Below are positions 63,015 through 64,000 of a DNA stretch of 64,000 nucleotides, in pieces. The stretch spans positions 2,593,001 through 2,657,000 of the forward strand of contig NZ_CP046242.1 in NCBI RefSeq assembly GCF_023205095.1, written 5' to 3'. Below the pieces are notes generated by a model. That model did no database searches. It saw nothing but the letters and a program-made list of their open reading frames with translations, and was not told where the DNA came from. Each line of letters opens with the position of its first letter. Within the stretch, counting starts at the first letter, position 1. Origin of the DNA: Bizionia sp. M204. GTDB taxonomy: Bacteria > Bacteroidota > Bacteroidia > Flavobacteriales > Flavobacteriaceae. A program made the position numbers and the translations under genes.

Positions 63015-63494
63015 ATGACTACCTTCCCTGTTTCTGCCTCAACTCTCTCTGAAACCGCTTTAGGCAACTTCATAAAAGACACGTATCAACTAGCGGCAAA
63101 TTTTAGCTGTAAGTTATACCGAACAGGTTTAAACCATACCTACTTTATTACAGATGGGCAAACCACTTATGTTATTCGGGTTTACTGCTATAACTGGCGA
63201 ACAAAAACGGAAATTCAGGAAGAATTACGTTTATTAAACCAACTTAAAAACAACAACCTTTCGGTTTCATTTCCTATTGCTGACAAAAATGGGATCGTAA
63301 TTCAAGACGTTCAAGCACCAGAAGGACTGCGCCATGTGGTACTTTTTTCCTTTGCTAAAGGTGACAAAATTCGCGTTATGAAACCAGACACCTGTTTTGC
63401 TATTGGCGAAATTATGGCCAAAATTCATAATGAAACCGAAGGACAGAATTATGAACTGTACAACCCAAACTTTGATTTTAAAAATAGTGGGTAA
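63015..63494 (+). pseudogene. Truncated phosphotransferase (APH/choline-kinase fold), N-terminal half
   Basis: A 159-residue frame covering only the N-lobe of an aminoglycoside-phosphotransferase-type kinase: CKLYRTGLNHTYFITDG, YVIRVYCYNWRTKTEIQEEL, and VLFSFAKGDKIR, ending NFDFKNSG. The catalytic C-lobe (HGDxxxxN and the DFDxxG metal site) is absent; intact relatives have about 320-340 residues. The next 205 bp hold no recognisable continuation. It is therefore probably a remnant cut by a deletion or insertion next to the mobile gene downstream. An expressed short protein cannot be excluded. Confidence 0.75.
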
Positions 63495-63513: not shown

Positions 63514-63578
63514 CGCTAACAAAAACCCGCACTTGTCATTCACAAAACCATTGGATTAAATTTAACAGAACCATTAAA

Positions 63579-63696
63579 AAGTAAACCTAATTGTTTACTT
63601 TTTTTATTTATTGTAAACATATAAGATTACTTTTTTATATATTTGTAAATGCATATGTTTACAATTATATTGTTTTGTAAACTTAAAGCTTTACAA
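63579..63696 (+). promoter_or_regulatory. Array of four phased palindromic operators, 32-bp period
   Basis: Four 22-bp sites start at 63579, 63611, 63643 and 63675, each with 7-bp arms around an 8-bp centre. Left arms are AAGTAAA, TTGTAAA, TTGTAAA, TTGTAAA; right arms are TTTACTT, ATTACTT, TTTACAA, TTTACAA. Sites 1, 3 and 4 are perfect palindromes in their arms; site 2 is imperfect. The core is GTAAA-N8-(T/A)TTAC. The 10-bp gaps are T- or AT-rich. The last site ends 3 bp before the ATG of the helix-turn-helix gene, and site 3 overlaps a TATATTTG element (63638-63645). This fits autorepression by that protein. Confidence 0.75.
63638..63645 (+). promoter_or_regulatory. Promoter -7 element inside the operator array
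   Basis: TATATTTG matches TAnnTTTG exactly, 54 bp before the ATG at 63700. It overlaps the first three bases of the third palindrome's left arm, so a protein bound there would block RNA polymerase. Confidence 0.55.
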
Positions 63697-63699
63697 AAA

Positions 63700-64000
63700 A
63701 TGAGAAATAAGCACAAACTTTTAATTGAGCAGTTAGACCAAAAGCTTCATCCATTCGCTGAAACCCGAAAGATCTTGGTTCCACAACGTGGATGGATAAA
63801 TACAATTAGAACATCACTCAATATGACAATGGCACAACTTGGCGCCAAATTAAATATTACACGACAAGGTGTAAAAAGAATTGAAGAAAGTGAGGCTAAT
63901 GGTTCCATAACGCTCAAATCTTTAAAAGATGTAGCCCATGCACTGGATTTAAAATTAATATATGCACTAGTGCCAATAAATGGGACCATCAACGATTTAG
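63700..64000 (+). CDS. Mobile mystery protein A (HTH), C-terminus beyond the window
   Basis: The 100 visible residues match the 'mobile mystery protein A' family (TIGR02612): the N-terminal LLIEQLDQKLHPFAETRK, RGWINTIRTSLNMTMAQLG, LNITRQGVKRIEESEA, GSITLKSLKDVAHALDLKLIYALVP. Residues about 34-85 form a Cro/C1-type helix-turn-helix. The family is normally about 150 residues and is encoded directly upstream of a Fic-domain partner (protein B), usually in mobile DNA. The partner would lie just past the right edge. The four palindromes upstream are the likely operator. Function of the pair is not established; a toxin-antitoxin-like role is an inference. Confidence 0.82.
   Translation, partial: MRNKHKLLIEQLDQKLHPFAETRKILVPQRGWINTIRTSLNMTMAQLGAKLNITRQGVKRIEESEANGSITLKSLKDVAHALDLKLIYALVPINGTINDL

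Follow-up and report, generated by a model that had tools for sequence, protein, structure and literature searches.

A conserved, evenly phased putative operator array in front of the mmpA-mmpB gene pair

Four palindromes stand in front of mmpA in the window, a stretch of 64,000 nucleotides from Bizionia sp. M204, and they form a real, evenly phased putative operator array. Such an array is a trait of the mmpA family, in which the spacing and the closeness to the start codon persist while the letters differ. From the sequence comparisons described here, the four palindromes are very probably the autoregulatory operator of the mmpA-mmpB operon, read by dimers of MmpA, with MmpB as the probable toxin.

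Four palindromes and the genes behind them

The features of the window discussed below are the following, the palindromes having no strand.
63579..63600, no strand: predicted operator site 1, AAGTAAACCTAATTGTTTACTT, dyad axis between 63589 and 63590.
63611..63632, no strand: predicted operator site 2, TTGTAAACATATAAGATTACTT, imperfect, dyad axis between 63621 and 63622.
63638..63645, + strand: putative Bacteroidota -7 promoter element, TATATTTG, from a consensus match.
63643..63664, no strand: predicted operator site 3, TTGTAAATGCATATGTTTACAA, dyad axis between 63653 and 63654.
63675..63696, no strand: predicted operator site 4, TTGTAAACTTAAAGCTTTACAA, dyad axis between 63685 and 63686, 14 bp before the start codon.
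63700..64000, + strand: mmpA (TIGR02612, HTH_3) from profile matches, cut by the window end and running to window-equivalent position 64161 (L007:1700-2161).
63862..63897, + strand: codons of the MmpA recognition helix, residues 55-66, with residue 57 at 63868-63870.
64152-64748, window-equivalent and outside the window (L007:2152-2748): mmpB (TIGR02613, Fic, PF02661) from profile matches.

As the initial annotation had read from the letters, the sites begin at 63579, 63611, 63643 and 63675 and share GTAAA-N8-(T/A)TTAC. Each is 22 bp long with an even dyad axis, the gaps are 10 bp, the step is exactly 32 bp and, as was also claimed, the last site ends at 63696, three bases before the mmpA ATG at 63700. 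The description of all four as palindromes with 7-bp arms holds for sites 1, 3 and 4, the arms of which are perfectly complementary, but not fully for site 2, which is mismatched at the two outermost pairs and at the innermost pair. The best core, GTAAAC-N6-GTTTAC, is matched perfectly by site 1 only. Exact matches to GTAAA-N8-WTTAC in the 64-kb window were confined to the array, and simulated sequence (300 × 20 kb with the local composition and 100 × 64 kb with the window composition) contained no two matches 18-60 bp apart, as compared with the chain of four at one step in the window.

Sites 3 and 4 have identical arms, as previously stated, while the centres and gaps vary between the copies. 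The array could be a tandem duplication without a selected function, and its equal spacing is what such an origin would give. The differing centres and gaps argue against it, as the initial annotation had pointed out, and so does the retention of the spacing across families with different letters. Furthermore, in seven close flavobacterial arrays (three sites), identity was 86% in the arms, 77% in the gaps and 60% in the centres. We give this explanation hardly any weight.

The putative promoter element TATATTTG was assigned on the basis of TAnnTTTG, which we take to be the consensus of the Bacteroidota -7 element. It overlaps the 22-bp site 3 by three bases, the last of the element and the first of the site; sites 1 and 2 precede the element, and most of the distance left to the start codon is taken up by site 4. 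No clear -33 element was seen upstream of mmpA in the window. TAnnTTTG occurred in 66 of 104 homologous upstream regions and in 5 control stretches (from the same loci, at most 104 controls), with the operator arms supplying part of the excess; a sigma-70 scan gave 4 matches as against 1.3 expected, which was not decisive.

The position of site 4, three bases before the ATG, would also suit repeats that work at the RNA level, forming hairpins about the start codon that control translation, and in some relatives (for example L032, L043 and L047) the last arm runs into the ATG. However, the folding of 63648-63720 was no better than that of shuffled sequences (z -0.07), and sites 1 and 2, which precede the putative -7 element, would not be part of the expected transcript. 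We consider translational control by hairpins very improbable. An in-frame ATG is present also at 63649, inside site 3; the family alignment favours 63700 as the start.

A point absent from the initial annotation is that mmpA is the first gene of a pair with a gene for a Fic-domain protein. MmpA scored 148.1 bits against TIGR02612 (curated cut-off 122.6) and the product of the adjoining gene, MmpB, scored 232.8 bits against TIGR02613 (curated cut-off 124.4), which makes both of them members of their families. The end of mmpA and the start of mmpB are overlapping reading frames, with the DNA-binding partner first, as in type II toxin-antitoxin pairs. Among the 136 homologous loci with enough sequence, mmpB lay downstream of mmpA in 129 and was adjacent to it in 125.

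The MmpB motif reads HCFPNGNGR here and departs from the canonical Fic AMP-transferase motif, given as HxFx(D/E)GNGRxxR in the excerpted text of PMC4257102. The asparagine of HxFxNGNGR was present in 116 of 117 matched sequences, while 12 of 129 MmpB proteins had no motif match. This residue in place of Asp/Glu may indicate a chemistry other than AMP transfer. MmpB was also matched by the PADLOC models PDC-S04 (candidate defence) and SoFic. In a structure model of MmpA, residues 55-66 fall in a single helix (mean pLDDT 85.7, pTM 0.59) and a further helical region follows at the C-terminus; a structure search with this model returned weak matches at the level of the helix-turn-helix (HTH), none of them at E <= 0.001.

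In the literature, a TIGR02612-like protein encoded next to Fic within a cas locus has been proposed to be an antitoxin (PMC3936711, in excerpt), and mll2066, annotated as mobile mystery protein b, appears in a heat-shock response table with a value of 4.02 (PMC3989490, in excerpt). The passages naming 'mobile mystery' or its families, in a corpus that covers subscription literature thinly, described no operator for mmpA/mmpB.

The array in homologous loci

We collected 159 homologous loci by protein and not by array. A start codon was obtained for 157 of them, the other 2 being without a usable MmpA start, and 137 non-redundant loci remained after leaving out 2 with short upstream sequence and 18 that were more than 85% identical upstream. 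Self-similarity was measured over the 130 bp before the start, with two control stretches from the same loci. The top self-similarity shift was 32 or 33 bp in 117 of the 137 upstream regions, as compared with 6 of 133 and 4 of 132 control stretches, and z exceeded 3 at one of these shifts in 99 of 137 (controls, 0 of 133 and 1 of 132). The preferred step was 33 bp in 87 loci and 32 bp in 32. Site calling by half-site coherence placed 94 of 137 loci above the 99th percentile of the control. The averaged even-dyad score peaked at -12 and -45 from the start; it was raised also at -78, by a narrow margin, since the score at -51 exceeds it and several other positions come close.

Arrays were called at a score of at least 0.722 together with an even axis, which gave a set of 104 loci (104/135) for the comparison with protein columns. 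The number of copies per array was two in 5 loci, three in 64, four in 31 and five in 4, and the steps between sites were 33 bp (163 times), 32 bp (76) and 31 bp (3). In 60 of the 104 loci the start-proximal axis lay at -12 to -14.

The array accompanies mmpA in Bacteroidota, Chlorobiaceae and Pseudomonadota; a top shift of 32 or 33 bp was found in 10 of the 11 pseudomonadotal loci (ten plasmids and one metagenome-assembled genome). For the collection scan, a distant alignment (A1) was dropped as it had no sufficiently conserved stretch, and a narrower one (A2) was used instead; it retained 80 of the 216 relatives, and almost all of these were from Bacteroidota or Chlorobiaceae. Matches were found in 233 plasmid records, 10 of which were taken in, and the phage records contained no relative at E 1e-5.

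Neither array criterion was passed by 12 of the 137 loci. These include misplaced starts (L046 and L128) and a truncated gene (L049), and two or three sites are visible by eye in L078, L090 and L140. These 12 loci are the outcome of a search for homologues with similar helices but no sites, which the initial annotation had named as refuting. Its proposed check on the upstream regions of homologues was upheld well beyond the clade of the window; GTAAA-N8-TTTAC proved to be only the version of the window's lineage.

The initial annotation had also held that equal phasing places all sites on one face of the DNA. DNA has about 10.5 bp per helical turn. At this pitch, a 32-bp step departs from three turns by about 17 degrees and a 33-bp step by about 51 degrees, so that the one-face placement is good in the window but rough in most relatives. 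With 33 bp as the more frequent step, strict one-face placement is not conserved, and only bending or re-twisting of the bound DNA would make the placement better than rough in the 33-bp relatives.

Several observations concern the setting of the gene pair. In flavobacteria, some mmpAB units are flanked by an inverted pair of repeats that resembles the edges of a cassette, with GTTGGCTTTAA on the upstream side and CTAAAGCCAAC directly behind mmpB; with up to 2 mismatches allowed, both were present in 8 of 133 loci (L016, L017, L145, L146, L150, L154, L155 and L156). The mmpAB copy of the window had no significant match to the edge repeat at either edge, and the closest feature is the following.
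63548..63565, + strand: perhaps a degenerate remnant of the GTTGGCTTTAATTTAA edge repeat, not significant alone.
An integron integrase was sought, and the matches were all below the family cut-off and occurred likewise in all 14 control genomes, which leaves the idea of a cassette without integrase support. The reading frame at 63015-63494 (159 aa), which ends just before the array, matched roughly the first half of the phosphotransferase (APH) profile marginally (23.4 bits, cut-off 23.2); it looks truncated, perhaps by the arrival of the mmpAB unit. Neighbours of the plasmid copies include Qat and type I restriction genes (L060), a DUF4297 anti-phage-associated gene (L061) and a tyrosine-type integrase (L058). 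No mmpA was found at E 1e-15 in two other genomes of the same genus as G000, which indicates that the pair is patchy.

Operator letters and the MmpA recognition helix

The half-site consensus is GTAAAC in the window's clade and GTCAAG, GTCAGG, TAAGG, ATCAGC, GTATCT, GTATAC or AACAAT elsewhere. The AACAAT half-site belongs to L026, the helix of which reads SQQAL; this combination presumably resembles the 434 repressor and its ACAAT half-site. We compared the operator letters with the columns of MmpA; at offset 7 the array-calling rule itself requires T. Residue 57 was the top column for offset 4 among the columns scored (mutual information 0.79; corrected 0.37, next 0.13). Residue and base were concordant, Ser/Thr going with G and Gly/Ala/Asn with A, in 85 of 92 classifiable loci: 49 had Gly/Ala/Asn with A, 36 Ser/Thr with G, 7 Ser with A and none Gly/Ala/Asn with G. 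On a tree built without the HTH, residue 57 and the base changed on the same branch 6 times, as compared with 1.0 expected and a maximum of 5 in 5000 draws. Among near pairs (distance <= 0.5), the base differed in 8 of 11 when residue 57 differed and in 3 of 36 when it was the same.

For the other offsets, Q56 and K59 led at offsets 5 and 6, and R55 was third at offset 8. R60 had the highest raw value of the eight columns listed for offset 3 and was sixth after correction. The best corrected columns lay outside the helix for offset 8 (Q118 and L108) and offset 3 (T43 and T22).

We applied the residue-57 rule to new loci, with the rule and its thresholds of 70% and 80% fixed in advance. The 36 matches (29 + 7) yielded 32 loci, of which 29 remained after 3 near duplicates had been dropped; they are distinct sequences related to the first set and not independent lineages. 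The top shift was 32 or 33 bp in 25 of the 29, and arrays were called in 24, of which 18 were concordant with the rule, 3 discordant and 3 unclassifiable (18/21), so that both preset thresholds were passed. The exceptions, 7 in the first set and 3 in the new loci, all have Ser with A, and one of them, L068, shares its helix letters with loci that have G. Thus, Ser permits rather than dictates G.

These results bear on the possibility that the sites are bound by another, host-encoded regulator and not by MmpA. Scattered single sites do occur in the genome, and half-site similarity follows overall relatedness: the Mantel correlation was 0.32 with the helix, 0.40 with the HTH and 0.39 with the C-domain, and the partial correlation was 0.08 (p 0.07) for the helix given the C-domain and 0.24 for the C-domain given the helix. 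Whole half-site similarity tracks general relatedness as well as the helix, and the Mantel analysis does not separate the two. On the other hand, the array goes with mmpA through Bacteroidota, Chlorobiaceae and Pseudomonadota, the operator letters change with residue 57 of MmpA, and genome-wide the GTAAA-type motif showed no excess over the reversed pattern used as control, in keeping with a regulator that acts only locally. A host-encoded regulator therefore appears improbable to us, and we strongly infer from these comparisons that MmpA would repress its own synthesis through the conserved phased array.

The sites also have a polarity. At offset 6, C in the left arm with A in the right arm was found in 123 sites, and the opposite in 14 (56 and 6 of the 104 loci); the counts in the new loci were 27 and 5 sites. 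Polar sites occur in L085, L069, L071 and many other 33-bp arrays. This polarity hints that the array has a direction.

Likeness to known operators and a proposed mechanism

The closest likeness is to HipB of Escherichia coli, an autorepressing HTH antitoxin with four 18-bp operator palindromes, TATCC-N8-GGATA (PMC3376134 and PMC3920265, both in excerpt). As with HipB-HipA, an HTH protein goes with four 18-bp palindromes with 8-bp centres before its own operon, and the weak matches from the fold search with the MmpA model include HipB entries (E 0.1 and above). The differences are several. The steps are 28, 39 and 28 bp in the one hipBA promoter compared, in contrast to the uniform 32 or 33 bp of the MmpA arrays, and the gap between the cores of a close pair is 10 bp (in an oligonucleotide given in the excerpt of PMC3376134), as compared with 14-15 bp. 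The window array has no TATCC-N8-GGATA sites at HipB spacing, HipA is a kinase whereas MmpB is a Fic protein (PF02661), and MmpA differs from HipB in its further helical C-terminal region. Our best reading by analogy is that the MmpA array may be a HipB-like operator set with a uniform 32/33-bp step.

Other systems share single points with the MmpA arrays. The DNA-binding domain of AbiEi and Rv2827c differs from that of MmpA, and Phd is not known to be an HTH_3 protein. In the type IV pairs of AbiEi and Rv2827c, the antitoxin likewise represses itself through several inverted repeats, but these are 23 bp long with gaps of 3, 13 and 4 bp, and Rv2827c shows negative cooperativity (PMC7319586, in excerpt). 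Phd-Doc of P1 has a Fic-fold toxin and palindromic operators near the start codon, but Doc has a motif ending in NKR, which the HxFxNGNGR of MmpB does not (PMC4257102, in excerpt). CccR of Yersinia pseudotuberculosis combines Fic and HTH with autorepression, but as one fused protein with one protected palindrome that has a 26-bp centre (PMC9755527, in excerpt). In this antitoxin-operator literature (HipB, AbiEi, Phd-Doc, CccR and others), available in part and thinly covered for subscription journals, no 32/33-bp array of the mmpA family appeared.

We propose that a dimer of MmpA (HTH_3) would read each 18-bp site through the recognition helix, residues 55-66, and that dimers at 32-bp steps, perhaps bound cooperatively as the initial annotation had expected, would occupy the promoter region as far as the start codon, exclude RNA polymerase and keep the operon off. 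MmpB, the Fic partner encoded by the overlapping downstream gene, would be the most likely toxin of a toxin-antitoxin pair. As the 14-15 bp between the 18-bp cores is wider than in the close pairs of HipB, contacts between dimers would need either MmpB, which may associate with MmpA dimers or link them over the 14-bp gaps, or the helical C-terminal region of MmpA.

As a variant within this proposal, the repressing species could be an MmpA-MmpB complex, relieved at excess MmpB by conditional cooperativity. Gene order and overlap are in keeping with it, and conditional cooperativity is described for other type II pairs (PMC4803016, in excerpt); the covariation, however, concerns MmpA alone, and we hold this variant to be possible but rather doubtful. 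A broader suggestion is put forward tentatively: the MmpA family might be a conserved, directional repressor scaffold, in which head-to-tail dimers, possibly bridged by the Fic partner, sit on a 32/33-bp ruler while the letters are rewritten by a few residues of the recognition helix, chiefly residue 57. Related mobile pairs that share a cell would in this way be insulated from one another.

These results offer a regulatory logic, checkable with a 118-bp probe, for a widespread gene pair still named 'mobile mystery'. The family would constitute a natural series of repressors that share an architecture and differ in the letters they recognise. Should the code hold, operators would be readable from the protein sequence, and cross-talk between coexisting pairs would be predictable.
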